Below are positions 792 through 63,263 of a DNA stretch of 64,000 nucleotides, piece by piece (position 1 is the first letter of the stretch; every line of letters begins with the position of its first letter). The translations under genes were made by a program, and so were the position numbers. The notes under the pieces were generated by a model. That model saw only the letters and a program-made list of their open reading frames with translations, had not been told where the DNA came from and ran no database searches. This DNA is from a virus. The stretch spans positions 1-64,000 of IMG/VR virus record IMGVR_UViG_3300026519_000009, one strand, 5' to 3'.

Positions 792-799
792 TATTTATC
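792..799 (-). promoter_or_regulatory. late-promoter-like GATAAATA
   Basis: Read leftward, the sequence is GATAAATA, one base from the T4 late -10 element TATAAATA. It precedes the 513-764 gene. Confidence 0.5.
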
Positions 800-848
800 A
801 AATTGACAAAATATCACCACTAAATCAGCTTGCTGATTTAGTGGTGAT
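792..848. repeat. hairpin-promoter cassette (solo hairpin), copy 1
   Basis: TATTTATC (792-799) is followed by a perfect 17-bp stem, 813-829 with 832-848, and a 2-nt loop. The arms read ATCACCACTAAATCAGC and its complement, a version different from the common CCACTTCC arms. The promoter half faces left, toward the gene ending at 513. Confidence 0.8.
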
Positions 849-892
849 CGATTTTCTTCAATATTTAGTGGGCGTAGGAAAACGTAAGTGAA

Positions 893-1084
893 TCAACCCA
901 ACAGCAATTGATCTCCACTTTCCACAATAGGAACGATTATTGCAACTTTTTGTTCGGCTTCGGTAAGACTCATCATTGCCATTTCAGCGCTTATCGTTGT
1001 TGGAAAACGTGCGGATACTTCCATACCATTGATTTTAATAACATAAAACACCTTATTCGTACTATCGGTTATCAGATTATCCAT
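893..1084 (-). CDS. small hypothetical protein
   Basis: 63 residues from the ATG at 1084, chosen because GAGGGAAG sits just upstream as a ribosome binding site. The middle carries the string FPTTISAEMAMMSLTEAEQK, and the C-terminus has hydrophobic strands (KVAIIVPIV). No family is recognised. It follows the DUF6899-like gene by about 30 nt in the same direction and is probably cotranscribed. Confidence 0.65.
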   Translation of the reverse strand: MDNLITDSTNKVFYVIKINGMEVSARFPTTISAEMAMMSLTEAEQKVAIIVPIVESGDQLLLG

Positions 1085-1116
1085 TAACTTCCCTCTCGTT
1101 ATATAATATATTAATG

Positions 1117-1476
1117 TCAGCAACCACTACCATCAGTATATTTATTCTTATTATCTTGACTTGTAATAGTTTCATTAAGAAGTACATCAGGTGTATTGGC
1201 ATCTACATCACCATTATCAAAACATTTTTGTGTTTCATATGGTCCTGCAATCGTTCGATAATGTTCTAGCTGTACGCATGTCAATAATCCAATAGCACTA
1301 TTTATGTCCGCATAATTTGTATTATAACAAGTTCGTAGTAATTTTGTTATAATGTAGTTTAAATTACCTTCCATTTGATTTTCATCGTCATCTAACTCTA
1401 ATTGAACAAGCGCCGAGCGTACCTTTTCAATTACTGGGTCTAAAACTTCCCGTTTATGTTGTTTAATATATGGCAT
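1117..1476 (-). CDS. DUF6899-like phage protein
   Basis: 119 residues matching the pattern I know for the DUF6899 family: an MPYIKQ N-terminus, a 'GNLNYIITKLL' core (about 38-48) and a conserved 'LEHYRTIAGPYE' helix (about 70-81), followed by KCFDNGDV. The function of the family is unknown. An AGGAGGTGA ribosome binding site lies directly upstream of the ATG, preceded by CATAAATA (1489-1496), a possible late promoter. The C-terminal 25 residues (TPDVLLNETITSQDNKNKYT and on) look disordered. Confidence 0.8.
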   Translation of the reverse strand: MPYIKQHKREVLDPVIEKVRSALVQLELDDDENQMEGNLNYIITKLLRTCYNTNYADINSAIGLLTCVQLEHYRTIAGPYETQKCFDNGDVDANTPDVLLNETITSQDNKNKYTDGSGC

Positions 1477-1488
1477 TAAATCACCTCC

Positions 1489-1496
1489 TATTTATG
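1489..1496 (-). promoter_or_regulatory. late-promoter-like CATAAATA
   Basis: CATAAATA read leftward, followed at once by AGGAGGTGA and the ATG of the 1117-1476 gene. Confidence 0.4.
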
Positions 1497-1540
1497 AAAT
1501 TTATATTGCGTAACATATTCTACGTCAGCGCTTGTTCGAT

Positions 1541-1720: not shown

Positions 1721-1800
1721 GTGATATAGTCACTTATGCTATAATGTTCAATTTCACCTAACTTGGCACGCTTACACGATGTAGTTTTGTCGCAATCCAT
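1717..1800 (-). CDS. very short ORF upstream of the DUF1737-like gene
   Basis: 27 residues (MDCDKTTSCKRAKLGEIEHY at the start), ending in an ATGA overlap with the next gene. No clear ribosome binding site is visible. The overlap suggests a leader peptide or a real microprotein, but the length allows chance. Confidence 0.3.
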   Translation of the reverse strand: MDCDKTTSCKRAKLGEIEHYSISDYIT

Positions 1801-1803
1801 AGT

Positions 1804-1858
1804 ATTTGCCGGAATGCCACTTCCAAATCAGCGAGCTGATTTGGAAGTGGTCGCTTCA
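1804..1858. repeat. hairpin cassette with promoter half lost, copy 2
   Basis: A perfect 16-bp stem CCACTTCCAAATCAGC (1817-1832) pairs with 1835-1850, and the right end TCGCTTCA is intact. The left end is shortened to TATTTGCCGGAATG, lacking ATCCAAGTT, so GGATAAATA is absent. The stop codon of the 1856-2131 gene lies inside the right end. Confidence 0.75.
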
Positions 1859-2131
1859 CTTTAATTCACGCCATATCATCATTTTCTTCGTGTTTTTATC
1901 CTTACGTACAAACACCTGTCCTGAATTTGAATATATATCATGGCGTTTTATTTGTCGAAGCACATTTGTTGACACGTTATGTACACGCGCAAATTCATTA
2001 AAATCAACAGCGATATGTGGGATTTTTTTAAAAGCTAATGCAATTTTATTCCCTTTCGGTCCACGTTTTTTAAGTTTCTTTTTTTGTTTTGTTGCTGTTT
2101 GTGGGGGCGAATGTGGTAATGTGTCTTTCAT
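1856..2131 (-). CDS. basic phage protein, possibly DNA-binding
   Basis: 91 residues from the ATG at 2131, selected because GGAGGAATATTA precedes it. The first 35 residues are Lys/Pro-rich (KQKKKLKKRGPKGNK). The C-terminal part has a possible helix-turn-helix-like segment (FNEFARVHNVSTNVLRQIKR, residues 44-63). I do not recognise a named family; DNA or RNA binding is inferred from charge only. Its 3' end abuts a hairpin cassette. Confidence 0.65.
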   Translation of the reverse strand: MKDTLPHSPPQTATKQKKKLKKRGPKGNKIALAFKKIPHIAVDFNEFARVHNVSTNVLRQIKRHDIYSNSGQVFVRKDKNTKKMMIWRELK

Positions 2132-2653: not shown

Positions 2654-2656
2654 TTC

Positions 2657-3001
2657 ATGTTCCACTGGACTTACACAGAAATCTTTGGTAAACTAACGCG
2701 GTATTGCGAAGATCAAGTTGTTATTGTTCGCAAATTACCGTCTAGTTACGCGAGCCAACAACGATGCACCAAAGGCGGCTGGGTACAAAAAACCAATAGA
2801 AATGGTAAAACATTTGAATGCCAGTCATGCGGTCACGCCGCAGATGCGTATATCAATGCCGCCATTAATATCGGAAGCGAATTGTCAACGTTGTCAAATC
2901 GCAAGTTACTAGACAACAATAATGGATTTTATTGGAATCTAGTAGATCAGGAGCAGTATATAGTCCCTGATTACCAAAAAACATTGAATAATATATTGTA
3001 A
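2657..3001 (+). pseudogene. decayed TnpB C-terminal domain (second tnpB lineage)
   Basis: The frame encodes a TnpB-type C-terminus: LPSSYASQQRCTKGGWVQKT, then FECQSCGHAADAYINAAINI. Compared with the family pattern (SxRCSxCGW ... CxxCGHxADADxNAAxNI), the second Cys of the first knuckle is Gly and the final Asp of ADAD, a RuvC-III catalytic residue, is Tyr. The N-terminal two thirds of the protein are missing. It follows rpsU by 3 nt. It belongs to a different TnpB lineage from the one at 3153. Probably a nonfunctional remnant; use as a small zinc-binding protein cannot be excluded. Confidence 0.7.
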
Positions 3002-3121
3002 TGGTTTACAATATATGTATATTCAAAATGTAACTATCTGGGTGTTGTTTAAGAGAATTTATCCAAGTGGCCGGATAGACACCATATTAAATACACAATG
3101 ATTAAGTGAATTTAGTTCTTG

Positions 3122-3150
3122 ACTTGACATTTAACTATGGTATCATAACT
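3122..3150 (+). promoter_or_regulatory. promoter conserved in tnpB element copies
   Basis: TTGACT, 16 nt, TATCAT, just upstream of tnpB. The same arrangement is kept at three other remnants (about 8710-8740 minus, 39054-39080 plus, 57390-57420 minus), with -10 variants TACACC, TACACT and TATTAT, so it belongs to the ancestral element. Confidence 0.55.
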
Positions 3151-3152
3151 AT

Positions 3153-3701
3153 ATGAAAAGAGCAATCATTCCTGATGATAAAGCCATGAAGACTTTAATA
3201 ATCCGTGTCAAGGACAACAAGCGCAAGGTTTTAAAGCAAAAGGCGTTTGAAGTCAATCAGGTGTGGAATGATGCAAATCATAAATGGTCAACCAAGATAG
3301 TAAAAGAAAACGAATTAATAGCGATTGGTAATGTTAGTGCGTCTAAGTTAGCAAAAACCAAGATGGCTAAATCCGTATTAGACGCAGGTTGGTATCAACT
3401 AAAGAACATGCTCGATTATAAATCGAAAGCGATGCGATGCATGTTTGTTGAAGTCAACGAATCGTACACCACCCAAACTTGTTCGACGTGTCAAAAAATA
3501 ACTGACACGAGTCCGAAAGGTAGATCAGGCCTTGGAATAAGAGAATGGACGTGTTCCGGGTGTGGAACAAGGCATGATCGTGATATCAATGCAGCAACGA
3601 ACATTCTCCGCTTGGGAAGTCAAGCGCTGGTAGCAGGAGTCTGTGGAAACACAGAAGACACAATGGGTGACCATTGTGCGAATCCACCACCAAATCTTTG
3701 A
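3153..3701 (+). pseudogene. tnpB: tnpB with large internal deletion (element A)
   Basis: 182 residues. The N-terminus MKTLIIRVKDNKRKVL (from about residue 12) joins directly to DANHKWSTKIVKENELIAIG, which in full TnpB lies far downstream. The segment holding RuvC-I (GIDLG, still visible in the copy at 59.5 kb) is gone. The C-terminus keeps VEVNESYTTQTCSTC, the CSGCG knuckle and HDRDINAATNI (RuvC-III). TnpB is the RNA-guided nuclease of IS200/IS605 elements; without RuvC-I this copy should not cut DNA. It is kept in frame across the deletion, so a truncated protein could still be made. Confidence 0.8.
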
Positions 3702-3754
3702 TTTGGTGGTGGATTCGCTTCAAAACAATCTATTACATAGGAGAATCTAAGAAA

Positions 3755-4630
3755 ATGAAAATATTAATGGTAGGCATTACCGCTATTTCACTACTATTGC
3801 TGGCGAATATAGCAGTTGGAAGTAGTACCTCCGGTTGGGGAACAAAACATGTGCATAACTCGAAATGTAATCACACAATTAACAAGAATAGAAACGTTAA
3901 TAAAAACATGAATGTTAACAAGAATAGAAACGTTAATAAAAACATGAATGTTAACAAGAATAGAAACGTTAATAAAAACATGAATGTTAACAAGAATAGA
4001 AACGTTAATAAAAACATGAATGTTAACAAGAATAGAAATATTAATCGAAGTAATAACAATCTGAGGACAACAAGCGTTGCCAAAATTAATGGTTCAGGTA
4101 ATAGTAAAAATTACAACAAAACTACCAGTTCGGCAAATGCAACGGGTGGTTCGGCAAATGCAACGGGTGGTTCCGCACAACAAAAACAAAGCCAATCACA
4201 ATCGTTGAATAATTCAGGAAATTCGTCGGCGACAGCGGTGGGTGGTGATGTTTTAGCCAACGGTGCAATTCAGATATCTGACAATTCTAGCACAGTATAT
4301 AAGGCAGCGCGGATTCCTGTAAATACGGCATGGGCAGCCCCATTGGTGGCAAGCGATGATACTTGCATGGGCAGCACTAGTGCTGGTGGACAAGGCATTA
4401 CTATTGGGTTAAGTTTTAGCACAACTTGGAGTGATTCCGACTGTGTTGTTCGTAAGGATGCACGTTTTTTGCACAATACACATCGTCCAGACATTGCGTT
4501 ATCATTAATGTGTTCTAAGAAATCCGTTAAGGAAGCGGTTAGGAGGGCAGGTAGCGACGCTGAAAAACGTAGTTGTGGTCTATTAGAACCGGCACCAACA
4601 GTAACCGAAGAATATGGCGAAAGGGGTTGA
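3755..4630 (+). CDS. exported Asn-repeat protein with a conserved phage C-terminal domain
   Basis: 291 residues from MKILMVGITA, preceded by AGGAG. Residues 1-23 form a signal peptide (hydrophobic SLLLLANIAVG). Residues about 45-95 are 12-residue repeats (NKNRNVNKNMNV), encoded by a nearly identical 36-bp tandem repeat. Next comes a Ser/Gly/Asn/Gln-rich linker with two SANATGG units. The C-terminal domain begins DDTCMGSTSAGGQG and continues with FSTTWSDSDC and ALSLMCSKKSVKEAVRRAG; I know this cysteine-containing pattern from uncharacterised phage proteins. Export and possible surface or periplasmic action are inferred from the signal peptide. A terminator follows at 4640. Confidence 0.75.
   Translation: MKILMVGITAISLLLLANIAVGSSTSGWGTKHVHNSKCNHTINKNRNVNKNMNVNKNRNVNKNMNVNKNRNVNKNMNVNKNRNVNKNMNVNKNRNINRSNNNLRTTSVAKINGSGNSKNYNKTTSSANATGGSANATGGSAQQKQSQSQSLNNSGNSSATAVGGDVLANGAIQISDNSSTVYKAARIPVNTAWAAPLVASDDTCMGSTSAGGQGITIGLSFSTTWSDSDCVVRKDARFLHNTHRPDIALSLMCSKKSVKEAVRRAGSDAEKRSCGLLEPAPTVTEEYGERG
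3877..4040 (+). repeat. 36-bp tandem repeats in the exported protein
   Basis: About four and a half copies of a unit containing AACAAGAATAGAAACGTTAA and AAAAACATGAATGTT, nearly identical to each other and all in frame (12 residues each). The near identity indicates recent expansion. Confidence 0.85.
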
Positions 4631-6637: not shown

Positions 6638-6694
6638 TTGAAGCAATCACCACCAATTCAGCAAGCTGAATTGGTGGTGATATTTCGGCAACTT
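6638..6694. repeat. hairpin cassette between convergent genes, copy 4
   Basis: A perfect 16-bp stem TCACCACCAATTCAGC (6647-6662) pairs with 6665-6680. The left end is inverted and decayed (GGCAACTTGTGTAAATTAA), so no GATAAATA remains. It lies between the guaC end and the convergent 6702-7052 gene, where only a terminator would be useful. Confidence 0.8.
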
Positions 6695-6701
6695 GTGTAA
6701 A

Positions 6702-8394: not shown

Positions 8395-8402
8395 TATTTA
8401 TC
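8395..8402 (-). promoter_or_regulatory. late-promoter-like GATAAATA
   Basis: Faces the 7329-8366 gene with a leader of about 30 nt containing AGGAA. Confidence 0.5.
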
Positions 8403-8453
8403 TAAAATGCAGAAATACCACCGCCAAATTCAGCGAGCTGAATTTGGCGGTGG
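8395..8453. repeat. hairpin-promoter cassette, copy 5, fused to tnpB remnant B
   Basis: TATTTATC (8395-8402) is followed by a perfect 17-bp stem CCACCGCCAAATTCAGC (8418-8434) pairing with 8437-8453. The right side continues into the right end of tnpB remnant B, so a cassette and an element share one hairpin. Confidence 0.8.
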
Positions 8454-8836
8454 ATTCGCATAATGATCACACATTATGCTGTCGGCAACTGTTGGCAACC
8501 TTCCGTGTTCCGTTGGTAGCCCATAGACACCTCCTACGATCGTTTCGCTTCACAAGTGGAGAATGTTCATCGCTGCATTGACAACGCGCTCATGTATTGT
8601 TCCACGCTTGATTGACAACAAACGCCTTTTGAATCAATACTTTGCGTTTGTTGTCATTGACACGAAACTTTAATGTCTTCATGACTTTATTGTCGGAATG
8701 AATGCACTTTTTCACATAAACGGTGTACCATAGTTAAATGTCAGATCAAGAACTAAATTCACTATGGTGCCTATCCAACCACTTCCAAATCAGCAAGATG
8801 AATTTGGAAGTGGTATTCCGGTAACTTGGATAAATA
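8418..8836 (-). mobile_element. tnpB element remnant B
   Basis: Read leftward, the segment begins with a left end (GGATAAATA complement at 8828-8836, hairpin arms at 8779-8790 and 8802-8813) and the conserved promoter region. The start of tnpB follows (ATGAAGACATTAAAG near 8680), then short decayed stretches that align with element A. It ends at the right-end hairpin 8418-8453. Most of the coding region is deleted and no frame survives. It fills the gap 8455-8859 between divergent late genes. Confidence 0.75.
8828..8836 (+). promoter_or_regulatory. late-promoter-like GGATAAATA for gp25
   Basis: Formed by the left end of remnant B, pointing outward and rightward, 23 nt before the gp25 ATG. 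Confidence 0.55.
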
Positions 8837-12465: not shown

Positions 12466-12496
12466 TTCAAAACTTTGAATTTTATCTAAATTAACG

Positions 12497-12560
12497 AAAT
12501 GTCACTTCCAAATTCCGCTGGGCGGCCAACGGTGAGGGGATTTAGCAAATCGGATAAATA
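12497..12560. repeat. degenerate cassette with intact promoter, copy 6
   Basis: CACTTCCAAATTCCGCTGGG keeps one arm only and the stem is broken. GGATAAATA remains at 12552-12560, facing the giant gene. Confidence 0.55.
12552..12560 (+). promoter_or_regulatory. late-promoter-like GGATAAATA
   Basis: 26 nt before the GTG start of the 3681-residue gene, with GGAGAG between as ribosome binding site. Confidence 0.5.
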
Positions 12561-21500: not shown

Positions 21501-23632
21501 AATCACCGGGTACATTCAATAACAAACTATACATTCGACATGATCTAGATGCAGATGCAATTGCAATTACTCATTTTAATAACACAACCAATTTATTAGA
21601 AACGTTGGTATTGGGGGTTGACTATAATATTATTAACAATAACATAATTGAATATATTATTGGACCACCAAGAGATTCAATTACAATCTGGGGAATGTTA
21701 CAGAATAATGATGCACAATCACCTGCACGAATTATTGATCACGCCTCGGAAACGCAAATTTCTCCCATTCAATTCTTTGATCCGGCACGGGGTATACATT
21801 ATTCTAATGCTATTCATAATATTGATTTGTTGAATGATACCGATCCCGCGCAATATACGAATACCATTAAAAATCAACCAATGGGTTCACCAGCAACCAC
21901 AGTTATAAATTCCACAATTTGGGAAAAATCATTTATTGGAACGACTTGGTGGAACACCAATAATTTAGACTATGTTCCTTATTATAGTAAAGAAATGCTA
22001 CCTAACACAACCGAACGATTCCGCAATTGGGGTGCGTTGGCTGATTGGTCAACCGTTTCCATATTTGAATGGGTTGAGTCAAACGTTCCACCGGATGAAT
22101 GGGATATTCTAGCGTTAAGTGAAGAAGGTGATTTATCAATACCAGAACACATACGCAAGTCAGGAACCGCTCGGCGCGTGTTATTTGAACAAAATAATGC
22201 AGGGGGTTTTATTGTTGCAGTTGATAAAATCGAAGAACAATATGTGGCGACTGAAGGAACAGAAACAGCAACCACGTTTGAATTTTCAGTTCCAGTTGGA
22301 AACTTTAAAGAAACGGGTAGTCCGCTCATGTATATTGTTGATGTATATATTAATGGAAAATTATATAAAGAGAATGATATCTTAACCTTTCCATATATTG
22401 TCGATAAGGTAAACATTAAAGAAGCCGATATTATTCACTTCGTTCAACCGATTCCAACCGATCAGACTATAATTGATGCTGAAATAATAGCGGGTAATAT
22501 GCGACAGGAGTATGAATTTTCCAGAATAACAACCTTTAATGAAATAGGCACGGAAGTAACAACATATTATTTTTGGGTAGAAAATAAGAAAACTAGACCC
22601 ATTAATCGGAATCGTTCAATGTCAATATCTGAGGCCGCAACCCAATTAATAGACATTCCTTCGGCACATATGTTTTTTCAAGAAGTACGACCGACCGAAA
22701 CAATAACATTGGATGATACAATACTACCACGAACCGAATTACATACGGTAATTGGTGGTAGTCCGATAGCTACCTTTTATCCGACAGATTTGCCAATTGC
22801 GTCAACCACCAATCTTTTAGTGGAAGTTAATGGCGTGGATTTACCGAATAATGGTATATATTTTACAGTGGGGGGGTCGCCCAATGGAATTACAATGATA
22901 AACCCACTCCCAAGTGGTAACAATTTAATGGCAGGTGACATTATACGCATATCATATAATGGAGTGAATACCAATTCACTAATATTACCATATCGTCAAA
23001 CCCAATGTATTATTCGTGGATTGCAAGGTATAGTGAATGCGGATCGTAGATATACTATTAGGTTCACGCGAGACTTCACTTTGCGTGATAACTTAACTAT
23101 TGTTGATAATGATGAACATATACAATTAAACAACGTACACGAAGAATGGAAGTTATTCAGGGAAAGTCAGCAATTTAACATTGATCGATATATGTGGGAT
23201 AATATAACGGAATCCATTGTTAAATTTAAGCTATTGCAACCAAGCGTGCGCGTTCCATCATTTGAGCGCGAATTATATGATTTACAATACAACACTGATA
23301 CACAATATGGTCTGGAAGACGGACAAGCCTTCGTAAATGGTGAGTTGGCGCTGGGTAGCGTATTGGGATATTTAAATGATCCAAATGTGGACTTTTCGCC
23401 AATAGATATTAATGCCTTTTTTAATAACAATAGTTTTGATACACCTGCTGAAATAATTATTGCGATGGATACTATATATAATACATTTTTATTCACCGAT
23501 GTGAATCGAATATTCTTCTCTGTGTTGGCTGATGCTTTTAGTACAAAATCTAAATACCCAGGATTGTTTAAAACATCAATGGTAAGTTTACATGGGGTGC
23601 AACCATTTCAAACCGCGTTATTTGATGATTAA
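12587..23632 (+). CDS. giant baseplate/tail virion protein in the gp7 position
   Basis: 3681 residues from a GTG start with GGAGAG upstream. It lies right after gp6, where T4 has gp7 (1032 residues), so a wedge or tail-tip role is likely. The N-terminal region has SETFNWVPPIDINKIINYRD and YYWVDT (about 126-148), a pattern I associate with very large structural proteins of marine T4-like phages. Several beta modules of a GD...NDGTY...TTITV type occur at about 203-255, 1610-1700, 1800-1860 and 2295-2350; they recur in the next gene. Trp/Tyr-rich repeats (YWWNTTTS) also occur. No enzyme motif is seen. The frame is unbroken over 11 kb. Confidence 0.8.
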   Translation: MPSDNKTDYMIKFMDLLELLPEPYQSDVNISVVNNLFNRFLTKKETVRVSGYIGVGNQNALTPRRIKENDIHRQAFQLQPILYDKIGTIEHMASWKDIQNETTRLGINIDDFATWGASETFNWVPPIDINKIINYRDYYWVDTVGSQPQYITVRSRCAVATSLANFWGQIITQYGELFPITEIREIDDTSALQTYSIVSINTGTGNVVITGDATTDIVNGNFFNISSTLNNNGTYQVNMAPVYDGVTNTTTLDVSGLIADENIGLVTLRRYDKLVIGPNDNTPTGDYSTLFEEGFVFFMRQPTNPEQNNQFVTVISSTFDPNNANTIVKIGLTTTDNTVAASSMVSLVEQNAIYVDARNCQCGVGVDGWDDGVLWDDNPSNPIWGDAEGALGSPIPDGISDYQNLINRISNAGPPALPGIQNELWFDTIGDILYQYDTVGGWKIIWNSFSTLLSDVTGQVLWDLSQNCDEAIRIPAMDQWILENKWVHKNDITNFASVRRATQPIIEYDWDLELNEWTFTKYRWGYRSETNGTFIETTELPPFIELEEIVWWELDTTDITNSTVILDSRYGDQSACFAANTRFHIGNTIINEVDYVEYKKPSIASMFPYRTYVKFKTPIVGSTGDFSIGTPNSLSLTPVVTKQGDLWGGYGVHWIFLGANDTVPVPHQTDNPDVAILDTALVSTIGSPPIYETRESLYAQEFQLLAPSTTILELSNIVPTNDTRSLQRKALYNFDDIRVYLSDITNGNIVRQFGTYEEIGEVVVDIIGIDDVLNEFIIGEDYSTLYTAGDTIRLQENNTVGTQDYTVAGGASNPNRIRVTTALAGISITGQIVNISNPVTTELYPNIDFVNTRNISIYVRGIRFLTPVLGGQNVTIEVGEASINELDRHALRVRTIEDEAQYNIVGDLAISTIKYRKVEQVKTSDNQYPLFDIFTATGEAANRANPIFGYKTSNTAPINQTGLRIVFDASTLVYEFDQFILDADNSELFAYRDYSNKKTDFWYNPETNEMLFWHGTEWSSRTAMSEHYRNAVISSIEPSLIDRAINGLYWYNTTTNTLFIRSIDPISNIGTWNPILDIDTTTTDTNLQTIWKGGLNNDQYVPERVDWLNRTNSEYNTEMSAFIDGRVNTLLTGDTTLSIADATTQASIDWFTSQENVLSPTGIWVGDWEIPDPLYHNNLHENKKCITSRDLLTHFTTIIESQPTIPGFNGDKNAMFNLIPTTGVNFALGGTIKEFNDGFDTFLSSTFVNNVTPRRLIEFAHDQYESLLNSIKESYRANAVRLFTDLSPNNIVNISGYISNEIIAIHELNDAAAFIYGDSTTFNDIPGANDLGVRNWIATLPYLRLLHRRLPVRIINEVLSLDEIIHHDGHRGAYSLTDTAENVIVQLIINTDDNRNGIDTLGRNSIANPPNNIADFAAEFNTDANNRGGVYWWNTTTSILYRYTVAESGTNTPILDYPDGTLWMDLTLGNEVLRIKSTSTSGVISWDVADGLSVGDGRFHNGTTVNDFNTATVSTWQEVNLNNLLGDLIFELETRLYNNAPNNPQLSYNTSLVETTYPNDHALYLEQAFLDHVSQLNIQTPYQNTAFNISDPFTWNYKHSAGGGGFAILEADGLTNSFLISGNQLFFFDPCSASATGSPITYPACVPGGTTATFYIKNSGGNDGIWTTLSSTVGDFTAFYDILTNTTRIFVQGNVMDDATGIIHIGLLPSQISSTTPNNLNDGSESGGDWRDLYTKLYNTPYPNLEPWKLQGYIDKPTWWDAEYLNTNALQWGDRVWKYKHGFELISADNLSNDSVDGIHGSFNISGNFNTVFTTGHSFTIDSSIGSPNNDGTYITGMREIITNVNIGSAGTASIEIDDVSNLATAIYLPSMIFSVIQTPVLPAINNTITKTYSITSVNKIGSIFTIAVAEEILVGDIIPATSVINGALYLPTSNITKVKIAGAVTTSSGNGRLIKSDSFGLGMWENIRIGVIPPNREYPNGIVGVTGNPSIDTLNGLSVPDLPRFSYFSVNIDNSNVSSDGGMTTYAPDGLLPPFWDHTQQFGTTLISFDNLIRTVFFNFSTEIITPNIDFIFGDAGPVEWEWRVSSQFLYDQLTIAYRIDPVRYVSSTFGFNLTTIAGLQIDRNIRNTPSHTRTTFHGDIANNTPVVSNGTNQWYVNFNRFTGYDSNFSDFNQLWTQWTAPLSYQFASFIDTPSLSIGHRFVSISEFDYNIAAKRSPGVNDYWLDAFNVNIIQIPFDIQRYDNQLEWRFELSTNINISREINYYDVRNYQFYANPITNECLLYTWEIESVNAFNKEFTILGDQTYVFSAGREFTISTSSGNDGTYTTTRARYDVNSNTTTITVNSIITSTVANGLITAKYRSYMWDTGDSIYLSTAETLPIPLRGDNANGLTEYFIIKISDTVFKIANTPQDAITNTPIVITSTGRRDQFVGEITSTFLAPNSTTNWRIYRIDESSSRKFNTPYQVQGFQTLIDIVRGYATFANDVGWVFNEDNSLRDPDTTRVVNWQVELERLITYAYGNRQLRRSINDRYEVSVNSSTDIWTFIEPNQSFITGDIITVLSSNSIFPVPIANGLNYFIIRDSITTFRISATRQDALNGIALNISASSGVGTLQISTPNTNANIIQPFELNAFRNAAWLNTPTGIVSNVITGPSEDIRTNQTIFNQNGQQISESHLRVYRQDKQTKIQIIDVDNPVSNNNNPLLSQEYSNINLGGLHLFTDSYEHIMIFNNYNTDGVLLYDPFIGLNVSKYEMLFNKQPEFLHRPSVGGYTIETFFNQGTNLTENIEASIENLRFAHDTYTNLESNLMTTHSRLSLGYEGITDYLLNLNLSEKSQFIFWRGLIQYKGSRNAVQAFTHSRRFIDAQIDDFWAIKVGEFGSVKEKEYPEIFVTTSDARSNELRLEFIDNDALDTSVESTFTPIKLSNEERWYNQPDQVHILRDKGNALFFDMIVNNSIVCSLTPGSPSNLIESPGTFNNKLYIRHDLDADAIAITHFNNTTNLLETLVLGVDYNIINNNIIEYIIGPPRDSITIWGMLQNNDAQSPARIIDHASETQISPIQFFDPARGIHYSNAIHNIDLLNDTDPAQYTNTIKNQPMGSPATTVINSTIWEKSFIGTTWWNTNNLDYVPYYSKEMLPNTTERFRNWGALADWSTVSIFEWVESNVPPDEWDILALSEEGDLSIPEHIRKSGTARRVLFEQNNAGGFIVAVDKIEEQYVATEGTETATTFEFSVPVGNFKETGSPLMYIVDVYINGKLYKENDILTFPYIVDKVNIKEADIIHFVQPIPTDQTIIDAEIIAGNMRQEYEFSRITTFNEIGTEVTTYYFWVENKKTRPINRNRSMSISEAATQLIDIPSAHMFFQEVRPTETITLDDTILPRTELHTVIGGSPIATFYPTDLPIASTTNLLVEVNGVDLPNNGIYFTVGGSPNGITMINPLPSGNNLMAGDIIRISYNGVNTNSLILPYRQTQCIIRGLQGIVNADRRYTIRFTRDFTLRDNLTIVDNDEHIQLNNVHEEWKLFRESQQFNIDRYMWDNITESIVKFKLLQPSVRVPSFERELYDLQYNTDTQYGLEDGQAFVNGELALGSVLGYLNDPNVDFSPIDINAFFNNNSFDTPAEIIIAMDTIYNTFLFTDVNRIFFSVLADAFSTKSKYPGLFKTSMVSLHGVQPFQTALFDD

Positions 23633-23640
23633 CCAAATAG

Positions 23641-23705
23641 CCGAAATGCCACCACCAATTCAGCAAGCCGAATTGGTGGTGGCATTTCGGAAAATTAGAT
23701 AAATA
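23641..23705. repeat. hairpin-promoter cassette, copy 7
   Basis: A perfect 21-bp stem, CCGAAATGCCACCACCAATT plus C (23641-23661) with 23670-23690, then GATAAATA (23698-23705) facing the next gene rightward. Confidence 0.85.
23698..23705 (+). promoter_or_regulatory. late-promoter-like GATAAATA
   Basis: 35 nt before the ATG at 23741. Confidence 0.5.
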
Positions 23706-30353: not shown

Positions 30354-30403
30354 TATGATTTACCGTTGTTAAAATAGTAACAAAATGTAACAAGTGTTTT
30401 TTG

Positions 30404-34087: not shown

Positions 34088-34094
34088 GCGTTGT

Positions 34095-34155
34095 TGAAGC
34101 GACTACCACCAAATCAGCAAGCTGAATTTGGAAGTGGTATTCCGGCAACTTGGGT
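34095..34155. repeat. chimeric hairpin cassette between convergent genes, copy 9
   Basis: The left arm is of the ACCACCAAATCAGC type and the right arm of the GCTGAATTTGGAAGTGG type, so the outer stem mismatches. This looks like recombination between two arm families. The left end is inverted and its promoter is lost (CAACTTGGGTATTC). Confidence 0.65.
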
Positions 34156-34158
34156 ATT

Positions 34159-37707: not shown

Positions 37708-37772
37708 TTATCCAAGTTGCCGGAATACTACTTCCAAATTCAACAAGCTGTATTTGGAAGTAGTCGCCTCAC
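37708..37772. repeat. hairpin cassette, copy 10
   Basis: TTATCCAAGTTGCCGGAATA, arms CTACTTCCAAATTCA...TATTTGGAAGTAG, then TCGCCTCA. The CTACTTCC/GGAAGTAG arms differ from the common CCACTTCC/GGAAGTGG but still pair. The promoter half reads GGATAATAATA leftward. Confidence 0.8.
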
Positions 37773-38903: not shown

Positions 38904-39357
38904 TTATTTATCCAATTTGCCGGAATACCACTTCCAAATTCAGCTTGGTGAATTTGGAAGTGGATGGATAGGCACCATTAGGACGATCTTGCACTTGTAT
39001 ATATTGCTTTAATATTTCAATTGGGGCAATAATTAAGTGAATTTAGTTCTTGAATTGATATTTAACTATGGTACACTGTTTATATGAAAAGAGCAATCAT
39101 TCCCGACAAAATAAAGCCATGAAGACTTTAAAAATTCGCGTCAATGACATCAAGCACACGGTTGCCAACAGTATTGAACCAAAGGGGGGGGTTGCGGTTG
39201 CCAACAGTCAATCGGGTGTTGATGGACACAAAACATAAATGATCAACAAAAATAGTAAGTGAAAACGAATTAGTGAAAACACCGAAGACATAATGAGCGA
39301 CCATTGTGCGAATCCACGTTCAAGCGCAGATCGCTGATTTGGTGGTGGTCGCTTCAA
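38904..39357 (+). mobile_element. tnpB element remnant C
   Basis: TTATTTATCCAATTTGCCGG starts the left end (38904), followed by a hairpin at 38928-38963 and the inner left-end signature TGGATAGGCACCAT. The conserved promoter comes next, then tnpB start codons (ATGAAGACTTTAAAA at about 39119) and short scrambled pieces. A right end with a decayed hairpin and TCGCTTCAA finishes at 39357. A run of eight G (about 39184) lies inside. No coding frame survives. It fills the gap 38872-39353. Confidence 0.75.
38905..38913 (-). promoter_or_regulatory. late-promoter-like GGATAAATA
   Basis: Outward-facing from remnant C toward the gp48/54-like gene. Confidence 0.5.
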
Positions 39358-39937: not shown

Positions 39938-39946
39938 TATTTATCC
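39938..39946 (-). promoter_or_regulatory. GGATAAATA placing the ATG at +1
   Basis: GGATAAATA, CCACT, ATG. Its left-end context TTTATCCAAGTTG is retained but no hairpin follows. Confidence 0.5.
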
Positions 39947-40094
39947 AAGTTGTCATTAAAGCGGTTGCCAACGGTCGCCAACTGTGCAATCACTTTTCAA
40001 TTTTCGGTGAAATTATTTTAAATTTTTAAAAATTAGTGGAACTTTTTTGAATATACAGCGTCTTTACTATTTTAACAACGTGTGTACGTTCAAA

Positions 40095-43713: not shown

Positions 43714-43865
43714 TTATTTATCCAAGTTGCTGAAATACCATTTCCAAATCAACAAGCTGAATTTGGAAATGGATGGATAAGAAGAATTTTGGTTGGATTC
43801 CAATTGAAGCTACCATCACCAAATCGTCTCGCTCATTTGGTGATGGTCGCCAACAGTAGCTTCAA
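43714..43865. mobile_element. two-hairpin miniature element (152 nt)
   Basis: Left end TTATTTATCCAAGTTGC (43714), hairpin 1 (43738-43772, CCATTTCC arms), inner signature ATGGATGGATAAG, a short spacer, hairpin 2 (43813-43846, CCATCACC arms), then TCGCC...GTAGCTTCAAG. It contains both end hairpins of the tnpB element with the gene completely removed, an intermediate between tnpB elements and solo-hairpin cassettes. Confidence 0.8.
43715..43722 (-). promoter_or_regulatory. late-promoter-like GATAAATA
   Basis: Faces the 41721-43685 fibre gene, about 29 nt upstream of its start, with GAGGA between. Confidence 0.5.
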
Positions 43866-45714: not shown

Positions 45715-45768
45715 ATTATTTATTCAAGTTACCGAAATACTACTACTGGTGGTTGGTCGTTTCGAACC
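45715..45768. repeat. degenerate cassette, copy 14
   Basis: TATTTATTCAAGTTACCGAA keeps the left end. Only traces of the hairpin (CTACTACTGGTGGTTGGTCG) remain. Confidence 0.5.
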
Positions 45769-45819
45769 GTTAATTTGACATTATATATCAATATCGCTTC
45801 AATCTTTTTTTTTATGTAT

Positions 45820-46829: not shown

Positions 46830-46850
46830 TTTCACCATTAATTAATTTTG

Positions 46851-46913
46851 TTATCCAATTTGCTGAATCCACTTCCAATTTCAGCTTACTGATTTGGAAG
46901 TGATCGCTTCAAA
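46851..46913. repeat. hairpin cassette, copy 15
   Basis: TTATCCAATTTGCTGAATCC, arms CACTTCCAATTTCAGC...CTGATTTGGAAGTG with mismatches, then ATCGCTTCAA. The promoter half is GGATAACA, not a good match. Confidence 0.75.
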
Positions 46914-47345: not shown

Positions 47346-47410
47346 TTATCCAAGTTGCCTGAATACTACTTCCAAAGTGGGCTAGCTGAATTTGGAAGCG
47401 GTCGCTTCAA
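47346..47410. repeat. hairpin cassette, copy 16
   Basis: TTATCCAAGTTGCCTGAATA, an imperfect stem (CTACTTCCAAAGTGG...TTTGGAAGCGG) and GTCGCTTCAA. The promoter half is GGATAACTATA, facing the membrane-protein gene. Confidence 0.75.
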
Positions 47411-47866: not shown

Positions 47867-47875
47867 TATTTATCC
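47867..47875 (-). promoter_or_regulatory. late-promoter-like GGATAAATA
   Basis: Faces the Nudix gene, with a leader of about 28 nt. Confidence 0.5.
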
Positions 47876-47937
47876 AATTTGCCAAAATACCATCACCCAA
47901 TTTTGCAAGCAGAATTTGGTGATGGCATTCGCGTCAA
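47867..47937. repeat. hairpin-promoter cassette, copy 17
   Basis: TATTTATCCAATTTGCCAAA, arms CCATCACCCAATTTTGC and GCAGAATTTGGTGATGG, then a modified right end (CATTCGCGTCAA). The CCATCACC/GGTGATGG arms are matched changes. Confidence 0.8.
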
Positions 47938-50240: not shown

Positions 50241-50269
50241 TTTTTGAATTTACTGTTGGCAACCCTAAA

Positions 50270-50322
50270 TTTCCGAAATGCCACTTCCAAATTTGGTTTG
50301 CTGAATTGGAAGTGGTCGCGTC
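50270..50322. repeat. hairpin cassette with truncated left end, copy 18
   Basis: TTCCGAAATG, arms CCACTTCCAAATTTGG...CTGAATTGGAAGTGG, then TCGCGTCA. The TTATCCAAGTTG part is missing, so no promoter is supplied to the spanin pair. Confidence 0.7.
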
Positions 50323-50524
50323 ATTTTCCTAGTTTTTGGTGGATATTCATAAGGTCTGATGAATTTTTTCGTGTAGAATGATATGTTCTATCCAGCTTTA
50401 CACCAGTTTTTTGAAGTTGCTTCTGCAACTGACGCATTACTTTTTCTATTTTCCTAATTTGATCAGCCTGTTTTGATATCAGTTCCGATTGTAGTTTTAG
50501 TTGTTGTTCGATATTAATTTTCAC
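50321..50524 (-). CDS. small coiled-coil protein
   Basis: 67 residues, almost entirely coiled coil (QQLKLQSELISKQADQIRKI, then MRQLQKQLQKTG). No membrane segment. Its start overlaps the end of the upstream membrane protein by 11 nt, and it precedes the spanins, so a lysis-cassette role is possible but unsupported by motif. Confidence 0.6.
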   Translation of the reverse strand: MKINIEQQLKLQSELISKQADQIRKIEKVMRQLQKQLQKTGVKLDRTYHSTRKNSSDLMNIHQKLGK

Positions 50525-51771: not shown

Positions 51772-51780
51772 TATTTATCC
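51772..51780 (-). promoter_or_regulatory. GGATAAATA placing the ATG at +1
   Basis: GGATAAATA, TACAC, ATG for the 51593-51766 gene. Confidence 0.55.
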
Positions 51781-51847
51781 AAGTTGTCGGAATACCACCA
51801 AATTAGCAAGCTGAATTTTGAAGTGGTATTCTGGCAACTTGGATAAA
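51772..51847. repeat. inverted left-end/left-end cassette, copy 19
   Basis: TATTTATCCAAGTTGTCGGA...and the mirror TTCTGGCAACTTGGATAAAA: both sides are left ends, giving a stem of about 23 bp with few mismatches around a decayed core. One GGATAAATA faces left to the 51593 gene; the other side (GGATAAAAA) faces a terminator. Confidence 0.75.
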
Positions 51848-53584: not shown

Positions 53585-53651
53585 TTTTTATCCAAGTTGC
53601 TGGAATACCACTTCCAAATCGGCGATCTGATTTGAAACCGACCACTTCAAT
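53585..53651. repeat. degenerate hairpin cassette, copy 20
   Basis: TTATCCAAGTTGCTGGAATA, CCACTTCCAAATCGGCGATC, a rearranged right arm (TTTGAAACCGACC) and ACTTCAA. The promoter half reads GGATAAAAAATA toward the helicase gene. Confidence 0.7.
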
Positions 53652-55589: not shown

Positions 55590-55598
55590 TATTTATCC
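55590..55598 (-). promoter_or_regulatory. late-promoter-like GGATAAATA
   Basis: GGATAAATA, GGTTTT, ATG of the 55017-55583 gene. Confidence 0.5.
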
Positions 55599-55667
55599 AA
55601 GTTGCAGCAATACCACTTCCGATTTCAGCTTGCCGATTTGGAAATGGTATTGCTACAATTTGGGTAA
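55590..55667. repeat. inverted left-end/left-end cassette, copy 21
   Basis: TATTTATCCAAGTTGCAGCA on one side and TTGCTACAATTTGGGTAACT on the other: two left ends flank an imperfect stem (ATACCACTTCC...GGAAATGGTAT). Only the left-facing promoter is intact. Confidence 0.75.
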
Positions 55668-57177: not shown

Positions 57178-57526
57178 TTGAAGTGACCACCATCAAATCA
57201 GCGAGCTGTGTTTGGTGGTGGATTCGCACAACGGTCGCCCATTGTGTTTTCTGCATTTCCACAGACCCCTGCTAGTAGCGCTTGGTTTCCCAAGCTGAGA
57301 ATGTTCGTTGCTACATTTACATTGCAATCATGCATTGTTTCACACCCGGAGCATGTACATTCTCTTATTCCAAGACCTGAACTACCTTACTGATAATAAC
57401 ATAGTTAAATGTCAAGTCAAGAATTAAATTCACTTAATCATTGTGTGTTTAATATGTTGCCTGTCCAACCACCATCAAATCAGCACGATGATTTGATGGT
57501 GGTTGGACAGGCAACTTGGATAAATA
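57178..57526 (-). mobile_element. tnpB element remnant D
   Basis: Read leftward: left end GAATATTTATCCAAGTTGCC, a perfect 27-bp stem (57456-57482 with 57489-57515), the ATTAAACACACAATGATTAA inner signature and the promoter. Then fragments of the tnpB C-terminus (the region coding GLGIREWTCSGC-like residues, decayed) lead to the right-end hairpin at 57186-57220 and CACTTCAA. It fills most of the gap 57149-57448. Confidence 0.75.
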
Positions 57527-57994: not shown

Positions 57995-58059
57995 ATTATC
58001 CAAGTTGCCGAAATACCACTACCAAATCAGCAAGCTGAATTTGGAAATGGTCGCTTCAA
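57995..58059. repeat. hairpin cassette, copy 23
   Basis: TTATCCAAGTTGCCGAAATA, CCACTACCAAATCAGC...GCTGAATTTGGAAATGG with one mismatch, then TCGCTTCAA. The promoter half reads GGATAATGG. Confidence 0.8.
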
Positions 58060-58857: not shown

Positions 58858-59358
58858 CTAATTGTTGTGTGAATTAATGAACAGTCCGCCAATAATTGTG
58901 GTTGCGCGATGTGATTGTGGTAGTATATTAAATGAACAGTCAAAATCACCATCAATTTCTTGTGGTGATCCTGTCAACGATCTTAGGTTATTAGCATATA
59001 CATGAAAAAACTTTCCGACTTCGGATGGACCGCCAACTAATGAAGATATCATATTCATAGAACAATCAAAGCCACCAGCAACTTCCTTCGGCGCACCTAA
59101 TAATGAGTTCAGTTCGTTAAATGAACAATCAAAATCGCCACCGACTTCACGCGGTGAACCTTTTAGTGTGGTCAAGCTATTATTTGAGCAATTAAAATTA
59201 CCATAAACAATTCGGAACTGTACTGGTATTTCGACTAATCCTTTAAAATCTAAATAAACATCACCTTTCACCGTTACCGTACTTGTATCATTAATAGTAT
59301 AATTTATAATACCCATTTCATCAAGCCATCTTATAATTTCTTTTTTATTAGTCATCAT
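58858..59358 (-). CDS. leucine-rich-repeat-like protein, paralogue 2
   Basis: 166 residues, same layout as the 55705-56166 protein: IIRWLDEMGIINYTINDTST, then EIPVQFRIVYGNFNCSNNSL and repeats such as GDFDCSFNELNSLLGAPKEV. The frame runs to the end of a fifth repeat and stops early, at NSHNN. GGATAAATA ends 5 nt before the ATG, so the mRNA is predicted leaderless. Confidence 0.75.
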   Translation of the reverse strand: MMTNKKEIIRWLDEMGIINYTINDTSTVTVKGDVYLDFKGLVEIPVQFRIVYGNFNCSNNSLTTLKGSPREVGGDFDCSFNELNSLLGAPKEVAGGFDCSMNMISSLVGGPSEVGKFFHVYANNLRSLTGSPQEIDGDFDCSFNILPQSHRATTIIGGLFINSHNN

Positions 59359-59363: not shown

Positions 59364-59372
59364 TATTTATCC
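59364..59372 (-). promoter_or_regulatory. GGATAAATA placing the ATG at +1
   Basis: GGATAAATA, TCAAT, ATG of the LRR-like gene; provided by the left end of element E. Confidence 0.55.
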
Positions 59373-59444
59373 AAGTTGCCGAAATACCACTTCCAAATTC
59401 ACGTGGTCGGTGGTATCTTTCGGTTCAAGTACTTGTTGACAAAC

Positions 59445-60088
59445 AAGTATCAACTGGCACCGGACATATAGGAATTGACTTGGGGTTAAAGACCATTGCT
59501 ACGTGTTCAAATGGCGAAATATTAGAACGTAAGGAATATTATCGTAAATCCGAAAGCAAGTTGGGCATTGCCCAACTTGCAAAAAAGAAACGCCAAGTAA
59601 AAACAATTCATGCGAAAATCAAGAACCAACGGATGGACACAAATCATAAATGGTCAACCAAGATAGTAAAAGAAAAACGAATTAATAGCGATTGGTAATG
59701 TTAGTGCGTCTAAATTAGCAAAGACTAAGATGGCTAAATCCGTATTAGACGCAGGTTGGTATCAACTAAAGAACATGCTCGATTATAAATCGAAAGCGAT
59801 GCGATGCATGTTTGTTGAAGTCAACGAATCGTACACCACCCAGACCTGTTCGTCGTGTCAGGAAATAACTGAAACGAGTCCGAAAGGTAGGACAGGTCTT
59901 GGAATAAGGGAATGGACGTGTTCCGGGTGTGGCACATTGCATGATCGTCATATCAATGCAGCAACGAACATTCTCCGCTTGGGAAGTCAAGCGCTCGATG
60001 GAGGAGTCTGTGGAAACACAGAAGACACAATGGGTGACCATTATGCGAATCCACTTCCAAATCAAAGATTTGGAAGTGGTCGCTTCAA
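59445..60088 (+). pseudogene. tnpB: tnpB with frameshift and lost N-terminus (element E)
   Basis: The first frame holds RuvC-I (GHIGIDLGLKTIATCSNGE) and runs to KWSTKIVKEKRINSDW then stop. An extra A in GAAAAACG (about 59675; element A has GAAAACG) causes the shift. The next frame continues KMAKSVLDAGWYQLKNMLDY, VEVNESYTTQTCSSC, CSGCG and HDRHINAATNI. In the last motif DRD has become DRH, removing an Asp that is likely catalytic. The N-terminal domain is deleted. Not expected to be an active nuclease. Confidence 0.8.
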
Positions 60089-60599: not shown

Positions 60600-61225
60600 C
60601 ATTCGTGTAATATCCATAATACAGAAGTGATGATCAAGCCCCCAATTTGGGCACTATTGTTGCACATCACCAACAATTCGATGTACGTTGCCCAATTTAT
60701 CGAAAGACGTTGAGGTTAGTCCATTGTTAGGTAGATTTTTATATTTACCAGAAGGTAGAAAACAAACATGCTGTAGTGTTCCAGTTTTCAAACGCTATGG
60801 TGGTAGTTCCCCACTAGGCCCGCGAAACCCCCCGTGACCGGCCTGGATAGATATATATCTATCCGAACGGAGGGGGGCCAGCTCTCATGGTTTTAAATGG
60901 TTAAAAAAAATAATTTAATAATGAATGTTTATTAGTTCTTTCTGCCTTGCGAGGCTTTATCCGCAAGGCAGAAGAATAATTGATATTACATTTTCGCGCC
61001 TTGGTGCGAAGATTATAGATAATCCATTATTACGTTATTATATTATTATGGAAATTGAAAATGTAGGCAATAATTGCAAAAAATGTGGTTTTGTTGTTGT
61101 CATGTCCCATTCATAACATTGGCACCAGACAAGTGCTTTCACGCAAGCGCTTCTTGAACGCAACTTGGATAAAAAATACAAGTCGTCAATAGTGACGAAT
61201 AAATATATTCTTAAAAAATAATCCA
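60600..61225. other. GC-rich structured noncoding region
   Basis: About 660 nt without a convincing gene. Three clear hairpins are present. The first (60828-60877) has C6 pairing with G6 enclosing the 20-nt palindrome GGATAGATATATATCTATCC (60845-60864). The second is a 12-bp stem TTCTGCCTTGCG (60940-60951) with 60962-60973. The third is small: TTCGC (60993-60997) with GCGAA (61006-61010). The stretch GGCCCGCGAAACCCCCCGTG is far more GC-rich than its surroundings. No tRNA could be folded by eye. An inverted left end without a hairpin lies at 61152-61168. Confidence 0.5.
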
Positions 61226-61254
61226 TTGATGATTTATAAAAAACATGATACAAT
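61226..61254 (+). promoter_or_regulatory. sigma70-type promoter of the DinG-like helicase
   Basis: TTGATG (61226-61231), 17 nt, TACAAT (61249-61254). The predicted +1 is 61261, the A of the ATG, so the mRNA may be leaderless. Confidence 0.7.
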
Positions 61255-61260
61255 CATAGG

Positions 61261-62859
61261 ATGAATAATAAATCAAAAATATTTGAATCATGGCCCACGC
61301 CAGAATTCACACCTCGTACAAATCAAATAATTGCATTGGAATGGATTGAAAAACAAACCGCAAAATATTTGATTTTGGAAGCACCGGTTGGTAGTGGAAA
61401 ATCACATACAGCACTTACATTTGCAACCTCTATATCAACACATCTAAAACACTCATTTGTATTAACACCACAGATAATTTTACAACAGCAATATGAAGTT
61501 GACTTTAAAAAAAATGGTAGTGCATTTTTAGCATCATTGCGTGGTAAATCAAATTATAAGTGTATTAATAAAAAAACATCATGTAATGTTGGTTCTTTAG
61601 TCAAACCAAAATGTGCTGTCTGCCCCTATATTAAAGCAAAACAACGGGCATTATACTCCAAAAATACGGTTCTTAATTACAAGTTGGCACTAACTACCTT
61701 CACGTATACAGATACGTTTGCAAAACGAAAGCTATTAATAATGGACGAAGCACATACCCTTGAGCGACATTTAGTTGATTTTGATTCCGTTGATATCAAA
61801 TCTTTTATATGCGAGAAATACAATATTAAATTTAAAGTTAATACTAATATTAAATCAGCAAAAGAATGGGTAACAAAAGAATATTTACCTAACATACAAG
61901 ACGCATTAAATACACTTGAAGAAGATAGTGAATATTTATATGAAAAAACAGGAGCAGAAATAACAAAAAAGGAATTAAAATTATTATCAGAAATTGATGA
62001 ATTAAGCGCACATGTGAATGATGTTTTGGAATTGTCAATACGAAATGTTAAGTATTTAGAAAAACACTTCGTACTAGTACACGATAAAACGATGATTCAA
62101 TTTAAACGTATTACAGGCGCGTATTCATTTAAAAAAATATTTGAACCACAAGCTGAACGTTTTTTATTCATGTCCTCAACCATATTAAATAAAAACCAAT
62201 TCTGTGCAGACTTAGGTATTGATGAAAAAGATACCGCGTTTTTATCACTTGAAAGTGACTTCCCTGTTGAAAACAGGCCAATATATTATATGCCCATTTT
62301 AAAAATGAATGCTGCTTGGAACAAACCAGAACAAGCAAATGGTAGAAAACAAATGATTACCAGAATATGCGAACTGCTTGATATTCATAAAACCGAGTCG
62401 GGAATAATCCACACAGCAAATTATCAAATAGCAATATGGTTAGTACAGGAACTTTCGAAGTTAAAGTCACACGACATTTATCATCATAATCCAAAAACCA
62501 AGCATAATCGAAATACCACAATTGATATGTTTATAGAGTCAACCGTACCATCTATTCTTATAAGCCCATCATGTACCGAAGGACTTGACCTAAAAGATGA
62601 TTTGTCACGGTTCGCAATGATTGTTAAGACACCGTTTGGATACTTAGGTGACCAGTGGATAAAGAAACGGTTAGATATGTCGGCTGAATGGTACAGGCGC
62701 AGAGCTATGACCGATATCATACAAGCTGGTGGACGAATTGTGAGAAGTTCAAATGATAGTGGCACAGTATATATTCTGGACGGTAGCTTTGGATACCTAT
62801 ATTCGCAGTCATCTTCCATGATACCAAAATGGTGGAAAGATTCATTAGTGTTTATGTAG
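61261..62859 (+). CDS. DinG/XPD-like superfamily 2 helicase
   Basis: 532 residues. Walker A is EAPVGSGKSHTAL (about 40-52), the DEAH box is LIMDEAHTLERH (about 159-170), and four Cys in KCINKKTSCNVG...KPKCAVC (about 100-122) suggest the iron-sulphur cluster of XPD/DinG helicases. C-terminal motifs include FMSSTIL, IIHTANYQ, SPSCTEGLDL and QAGGRIVRSSNDSG (motif VI). It is shorter than DinG (about 700). Probably a 5'-3' DNA helicase in repair or recombination. It has a near-consensus host-type promoter. Confidence 0.85.
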   Translation: MNNKSKIFESWPTPEFTPRTNQIIALEWIEKQTAKYLILEAPVGSGKSHTALTFATSISTHLKHSFVLTPQIILQQQYEVDFKKNGSAFLASLRGKSNYKCINKKTSCNVGSLVKPKCAVCPYIKAKQRALYSKNTVLNYKLALTTFTYTDTFAKRKLLIMDEAHTLERHLVDFDSVDIKSFICEKYNIKFKVNTNIKSAKEWVTKEYLPNIQDALNTLEEDSEYLYEKTGAEITKKELKLLSEIDELSAHVNDVLELSIRNVKYLEKHFVLVHDKTMIQFKRITGAYSFKKIFEPQAERFLFMSSTILNKNQFCADLGIDEKDTAFLSLESDFPVENRPIYYMPILKMNAAWNKPEQANGRKQMITRICELLDIHKTESGIIHTANYQIAIWLVQELSKLKSHDIYHHNPKTKHNRNTTIDMFIESTVPSILISPSCTEGLDLKDDLSRFAMIVKTPFGYLGDQWIKKRLDMSAEWYRRRAMTDIIQAGGRIVRSSNDSGTVYILDGSFGYLYSQSSSMIPKWWKDSLVFM

Positions 62860-62866
62860 TGTTGAA

Positions 62867-62888
62867 TAATTCAGGCAACTTGGATAAA
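62867..62888. repeat. left-end fragment without hairpin
   Basis: TTCAGGCAACTTGGATAAAG, an inverted left end just before the 62899 gene. GGATAAAG is a poor promoter match. Confidence 0.5.
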
Positions 62889-62898
62889 GGAAAAAAAA

Positions 62899-63204
62899 AT
62901 GCGAAGCATATTAAAATTAATGTTACAGATTGTCGCGTATGCAGTAATAGTGATGTTAACAGTATATTGGATATCGGCAGAACAACTAAACTACATTCTT
63001 ATTGAAATACCAACATTAATATTTGATACGTTGGTTAAGTTAATGCCGACTAATGGCCACGAATCAACAACAGTTGACGTTGCGTTAATGGGGATATACA
63101 CATTCCTTGCACTAACCTTACCCGTTCTTTGGTGGTTATTTGTATTTTTTACACCATTTATGCTATTACGTAATGTTTCCAACAAATATATTAATGGTTG
63201 TTGA
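62899..63204 (+). CDS. small membrane protein
   Basis: 101 residues with two membrane segments: about 6-25 (LMLQIVAYAVIVMLTVYWIS) and 67-92 (IYTFLALTLPVLWWLFVFFT). The loop between contains LIEIPTLIFDTLVKLMPTNG. AAGGAAAA upstream is the ribosome binding site. No family is recognised; a holin is one possibility among several. Confidence 0.65.
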   Translation: MRSILKLMLQIVAYAVIVMLTVYWISAEQLNYILIEIPTLIFDTLVKLMPTNGHESTTVDVALMGIYTFLALTLPVLWWLFVFFTPFMLLRNVSNKYINGC

Positions 63205-63263
63205 AGCGCCACACACCACCAAATCAGCAAGTTGAATTTGGTGGTGTGGTAGTGGTAACTTCA
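63203..63263. repeat. hairpin cassette between convergent genes, both ends right-type
   Basis: TTGAAGCGCCACACACCACC, a stem (ACCACCAAATC...GAATTTGGTGGT), then GTAACTTCAA. Both sides resemble right ends, so no promoter is present. It separates two gene ends that meet head-on. Confidence 0.7.

Follow-up and report, generated by a model that had tools for sequence, protein, structure and literature searches.

Late promoters of a T4-type phage as probable insertion sites of an IS605-type transposon that decays to single hairpins

Gene-free derivatives that keep the ends of their parent transposon are known for the IS200/IS605 family as miniature inverted-repeat transposable elements (MITEs), such as the palindrome-associated transposable elements (PATEs) of haloarchaea and their viruses. 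T4-type phages also carry the PeSL (promoter early stem-loop), a mobile unit in which an early promoter is combined with a stem-loop. Elements of the IS200/IS605 family, ISCaje1 to ISCaje4, occur in T4-type Campylobacter phages, mostly with tnpB only (PMC2853527). In IS608, the cleavage sites are TTAC at the left (CL) and TCAA at the right (CR), and the guides are AAAG (GL) and GAAT (GR) (PMC5934647). The T4 late promoter is an octamer, TATAAATA, whose first base is variable; it spans -13 to -6 and depends on gp55 and the sliding clamp (PMC1524935). Here, we describe hairpin cassettes scattered over 64,000 nucleotides of viral DNA (IMG/VR record IMGVR_UViG_3300026519_000009, positions 1 to 64,000; "the window"), which are very probably what remains, mostly as single hairpins, of decayed copies of an IS605-type (IS608-like) transposon inserted 3′ of TTAT, in many cases within pre-existing late promoters.

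The window belongs to a 76.6-kb viral record (G000) of a large T4-type phage; the DnaB-like helicase encoded there is ~40% identical to the counterparts in Sinorhizobium phage Phosso and Agrobacterium phage Atu_ph07. Numerous genes match a 363.5-kb contig (G007) and three shorter contigs (G004, G008, and G012), which contain no cassette matches and serve as cassette-free relatives; three further related contigs (G001, G002, and G003) were recruited by pattern. Homologs of the gp55 late sigma factor are present in the relatives, the sliding clamp profile PF02916 gave no match, and an Rfam search of the window returned nothing. A search of extra viral contigs with the right-end pattern yielded two new matches, both of which were judged by eye to be chance.

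The end of contig G002 holds an element with the cassette left end, a minus-strand gene for a 159-amino-acid Y1 transposase, and, on the plus strand, the beginning of tnpB. This TnpA (49915-50394; L054:9915-10394) looks intact (PF01797, E = 1.5e-41) and aligns with the IS608 TnpA (E = 7e-22), including the HIH (HUH) motif and the C-terminal tyrosine. Its bacterial relatives are at most 53% identical, and inspection by eye of their displayed 3′ flanks revealed no left end matching the cassettes; loci related to the window TnpB were found in G002 only. The ends fit the IS608 guide-code layout: in the cassette left end, TTAT occupies the target/CL position and AATA (GL) lies directly 5′ of the hairpin, and in the tnpB elements GAAT (GR) lies directly 5′ of the right hairpin and the terminus is TCAA (CR). 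The pairing of target with guide would then have been preserved, the guide changing together with the target, since in the published pairing the last pair is G-C in IS608 and would be A-T here. The phage element thus shares with IS608 a Y1/HUH TnpA homolog, tnpA and tnpB in divergent orientation, subterminal hairpins that have guide tetranucleotides at their feet (with identical CR and GR), and probable insertion 3′ of a T-rich tetranucleotide, but its target is TTAT instead of TTAC and its guide AATA instead of AAAG. Also unlike IS608, its copies are mostly single hairpins, many of them at late promoters, and the G002 tnpA frame crosses the left hairpin to end in GGA TAA, with the stop codon TAA supplied by the insertion target. 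On this sequence evidence, we regard the G002 element as the parent of the cassettes.

Left ends were collected by iterated scanning of G000, G001, G002, and G003, followed by curation, which left ~27 in G000, 7 in G002, and 6 in G003. In the window, the left-end 21-mer has 16 matches at ≤3 mismatches (0 in shuffles), and the right end, TCGCTTCAA, has 33 at ≤1 mismatch (11.5 expected). The left boundary is sharp: conservation starts at TTAT (positions -4 to -1, each base present in 82 to 93% of 40 ends) and runs on into CCAAGTTGCCGGAATACCAC, whereas the three bases preceding TTAT are conserved at only 62 to 75%. Between the ends, 7 of 10 stem pairs show compensatory changes over 20 copies, a level reached by 0 of 500 shuffles. 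The original prediction, made from the window alone, spoke of about 25 cassettes with shared ends; the repeats are real, but left end, hairpin, and right end are all present at only 12 window loci by our count. Four copies (at 12.5, 23.7, 51.8, and 55.6 kb) are palindromes with a left end on each side, and the others belong to longer elements or remnants. A right-end-like hairpin at 63201-63249, bordered by TTGAAGCGCCAC and, across the hairpin, by AACTTCAA, is an unassigned relative of the cassettes.

The proposal that cassettes and tnpB elements have their ends in common, and that the former derive from the latter, is borne out. TnpB (PF07282) matches lie at 3390-3605, 59757-59972, and elsewhere, and all tnpB copies in the window are decayed. 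The element at 57178..57523 has both hairpins; that at 3059..3723 has a left end without a hairpin. The open reading frame (ORF) at 2657-3001 has a match to the TnpB C terminus (PF07282, E = 1.9e-12), and its 3′ end is duplicated, inverted, at 57890-57999. A second tnpB family is represented by another TnpB-like gene (PF07282, E = 1.6e-8), which is overlapped by a segment at 30348-30576, ~220 bp of which are 91 to 93% identical to G002 15541-15760 and G003 10176-10399 in different surroundings.

As the original prediction noted, cassettes frequently adjoin T4-type late promoters. ATAAATA occurs within 150 nt upstream of 46 of 148 called genes, versus 11 in the opposite orientation, and an intact copy that reads into a gene start lies beside about half of the left ends; at the other half it is missing, so that it is not a constant part of the cassette. 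At 11 of 12 testable loci (genes 764, 8366, 8860, 12587, 38871, 43685, 45685, 47838, 51766, 55583, and 74869), at least one of the cassette-free relatives has a promoter at nearly the same distance, in the form [TGA]ATAAATA or, in a few cases, CATAAATA. Promoter-to-start distances in G000 and the relatives agree closely (r = 0.988; permutation p = 1.6e-4; median difference, 1 nt; n = 10, with 38871 omitted for its different start codon). These loci were read by eye; an automatic comparison found late promoters in relatives for 10 of 15 cassette genes and 11 of 32 other genes, a borderline difference (p = 0.06) in which the starts of 8860, 51766, and 53574 are misplaced. Conversely, seven insertion sites without TAT before TTAT (37712, 46854, 47350, 53592, 58000, 62883, and 71718) all lack ATAAATA, and those at 37712 and 53592 have no matching late promoter in the relatives either (an ATAAATA 17 nt upstream at the 37712 locus in G012/L079 is taken as chance). 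Because promoters stand at nearly equal positions in cassette-free relatives, the late promoters came first, with the element landing immediately upstream; and because cassettes at promoter-less TTAT sites have no ATAAATA, the cassette itself does not carry the promoter, contrary to what had been proposed.

Loci without a cassette, which the original prediction had suggested looking for in related phages, are present. At three junctions where both neighboring genes are kept, the insertion is visible as added length: the 12.5-kb junction measures 121 nt versus 64 nt in G007 and 54 nt in G012 (a value of 433 nt for G008 stems from a partial alignment), that at 37.7 kb measures 113 nt versus 9 to 15 nt in relatives, and that at 53.6 kb measures 79 nt versus 38 nt in G007. 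Control junctions are about equal in length between phages. At 45.7 kb, G004 and G008 keep a divergent gene pair with its two late promoters but have no cassette. Homology between the left flank of the 58.0-kb cassette and 2919-3038 runs as far as TTAT and stops there. A precise empty site was also sought for the 71.7-kb copy in the close relative G001, where the junction is scrambled.

The loci in the window are as follows (strand in parentheses; a dot denotes a palindrome).
795..861 (+): solo cassette with left end, hairpin, and TTCTTCAA as its right end; the late promoter of gene 513-764(-) lies to the left of it; the G007 ortholog has ATAAATA without a hairpin.
1797..1859 (+): solo cassette with degenerate left flank and no late promoter.
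3059..3723 (+): decayed tnpB-bearing element; TnpB C-terminal part at 3153-3701; right end with hairpin and TTCAA.
6638..6700 (-): solo cassette without a late promoter, flanked by convergent genes.
8398..8833 (-): decayed tnpB element whose left end, 8829, lies at the late promoter of 8860-9240; right hairpin fused to an inverted left end, 8402, at the late promoter of 7329-8366.
12482..12557 (.): decayed palindromic cassette with the late promoter of 12587-23632, a gene for 3,681 amino acids.
23629..23702 (.): palindrome with two left ends, located upstream of 23741-25759.
34094..34157 (-): solo cassette without a promoter, its arms mismatched (TTCC type on the 5′ side, GGTGG type on the 3′ side).
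37708..37771 (+): solo cassette within the baseplate operon, no ATAAATA.
38905..38912 (-): late promoter GATAAATA of gene 38149-38871, conserved, cassette-free, in G004, G007, G008, and G012.
38908..39357 (+): decayed element that retains remnants of tnpA and tnpB; its left end shares 94% identity with that of the tnpA-bearing G002 element.
39941..39953 (+): remnant of a left end, at the late promoter of a gene on the minus strand that ends at 39354.
43715..43722 (-): late promoter GATAAATA of gene 41721-43685, found in G007 without a cassette.
43718..43865 (+): gene-free mini-element with two hairpins (left end and hairpin, right hairpin and CTTCAA).
45720..45802 (+): decayed cassette with a late promoter on either side, the two being divergent.
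46850..46912 (+): solo cassette that lies upstream of 46599-46838(-) and lacks an intact ATAAATA.
47346..47410 (+): solo cassette, likewise lacking an intact ATAAATA.
47870..47937 (+): solo cassette at the late promoter of 47407-47838(-).
50261..50323 (+): solo cassette with degenerate flank, no promoter.
51775..51846 (.): palindrome with two left ends, located at the late promoter of 51593-51766(-).
53588..53650 (+): solo cassette without ATAAATA, lying upstream of the gene for the DnaB-like helicase.
55593..55667 (.): palindrome with two left ends, located at the late promoter of 55017-55583(-).
57178..57523 (-): tnpB element, decayed but with its two hairpins retained.
57996..58059 (+): solo cassette, its left flank homologous to 2919-3038 as far as TTAT.
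59367..60088 (+): decayed tnpB element at the late promoter of 58858-59355(-).
62868..62887 (-): remnant of a left end that faces 62899-63204(+).

Other repeats in the window include a near-identical direct repeat of Asn-rich units at 3879-4045, within ORF 3755-4630; a 179-bp direct duplication (97% identity) at 42511-42863, within the tail-fibre-like gene 41721-43685; and paralogous segments at 55891-56008 and 59116-59233, in genes 55705-56166 and 58858-59355, both of which have cassettes nearby.

The copies form a size series, from tnpA plus the start of tnpB (G002), through tnpB-only remnants (3.1, 8.4, 38.9, 57.2, and 59.4 kb) and the gene-free pair of hairpins at 43718-43865, to single hairpins; this series supports derivation of the single hairpins from longer tnpA/tnpB elements. 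How tnpB was lost had been likened to the formation of a solo long terminal repeat (LTR), and this part of the proposal is plausible: the two-hairpin mini-element could be an intermediate, and some single hairpins combine a TTCC-type 5′ arm with a GGTGG-type 3′ arm (34153 and G003 6069, the only clear cases, as some counted arm mismatches are cut-out offsets), whereas the arms match perfectly in 8 left ends of longer elements. Similar to a solo LTR, a single end-unit would remain after recombination between the two ends of an element, although these ends are hairpins of a DNA transposon that would move in single-stranded form. The four palindromes suggest that hairpins also recombine in inverted orientation. 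The mini-element at 43718-43865 resembles MITEs and PATEs in being gene-free with both hairpins, and the cassettes likewise keep the outer ends; however, most phage copies consist of one hairpin that joins left end to right end.

We propose that an IS608-like transposon inserted on one strand, presumably through its TnpA, at the position immediately 3′ of TTAT. As the complement of TTAT, ATAA, forms part of [TGA]ATAAATA, insertion 3′ of TATTTAT would place the left end directly upstream of the promoter and alter at most position -13, which is variable among T4-type phages. Late promoters lack a -35 element, so promoter function should survive such an insertion. Later, tnpA and tnpB would be lost by internal deletion, probably through recombination of the left hairpin with the right. 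ISCaje1 to ISCaje4 are likewise IS200/IS605 elements, mostly tnpB-only, in T4-type genomes, but promoter targeting is not reported for them, the word "promoter" being absent from the main text (PMC2853527). The cassettes share with PeSLs a hairpin beside a promoter, scattered over a T4-type genome; here, though, the adjoining promoter is of the late type, predates the insertion, and lies outside the mobile unit, such that the PeSL definition does not apply.

Occupancy in G000 is strongly biased: 14 of 22 late-promoter TTAT sites hold an end, as opposed to 7 of 224 other noncoding TTAT sites (p = 1e-12). Insertion preference, retention where no upstream promoter element is needed, and selection for the hairpin could each contribute. 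The last of these would mean that hairpins persist for a role in regulation or RNA stability (insulation from, or processing of, read-through RNA), in place of hairpins or terminators that relatives have upstream of some of these promoters; in G007, a U-tailed hairpin precedes the promoter orthologous to that of 8366, and a hairpin also stands upstream of the 55583 counterpart. This reading is compatible with a transposon origin, and both the bias and the covariation in old copies agree with it, yet we consider it unlikely: recognition of hairpins by TnpA, or gene conversion, would also give covariation, many hairpins are decayed, and G002 and G003 show no such bias.

It is far less probable that the solo hairpins act, as originally envisaged, as portable units that terminate transcripts arriving from upstream and supply the next gene with its late promoter. 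The promoters beside left ends and the compensatory changes in the stems are what such units would display, but promoters occupy the same positions in cassette-free relatives, and cassettes elsewhere are without ATAAATA. The terminator half of the proposal is likewise unsupported. An intrinsic terminator has a GC-rich hairpin with a U-tract after it. No U-tract follows the cassette hairpins in either direction (mean T content of the 8 nt after the hairpin, 2.3 and 2.9 on the two strands), and an intrinsic-terminator scan of 37 to 56 kb listed no cassette hairpin. Moreover, the 37.7-kb cassette sits without a late promoter of its own between genes of a conserved baseplate operon that are adjacent in the sampled relatives, and efficient termination there would be expected to silence the downstream baseplate genes. 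Modular shuffling, in which upstream regions are swapped by recombination at late promoters without transposase, would explain why relatives, at many loci, have an unrelated sequence upstream of the promoter, but it is very improbable given two-sided insertions that keep both neighboring genes (junction lengths; 45.7 kb), insertions at promoter-less TTAT, and a TnpA-bearing parent with the same ends.

Several observations weigh against the transposon origin that we favor. No TnpA was found in the window's own record, which is a fragment; at 70162, the promoter is missing from three relatives; several right ends and flanks are decayed, leaving few junctions that can be joined cleanly; and the enrichment at late promoters is absent in G002 (1 of 13) and G003 (0 of 5), so that the target sequence alone does not explain it. 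A speculative extension, to which we give little weight, is that the late promoter serves both as landing site and as TnpB recognition site (transposon-associated motif, TTTAT): the RNA-guided nuclease of the element would cut empty late promoters of co-infecting relatives, spreading the element promoter by promoter, with late promoters as insertion-tolerant safe sites.

If inserted and decayed as proposed, these elements offer a concrete case in which a phage promoter sequence coincides with a transposon target. A minimal transposon may persist in a compact virulent phage by using a four-letter target within a promoter class that needs no upstream element, since insertion there should cost little. 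They also advise caution, in that hairpins beside phage promoters can be transposon scars instead of regulatory cassettes.

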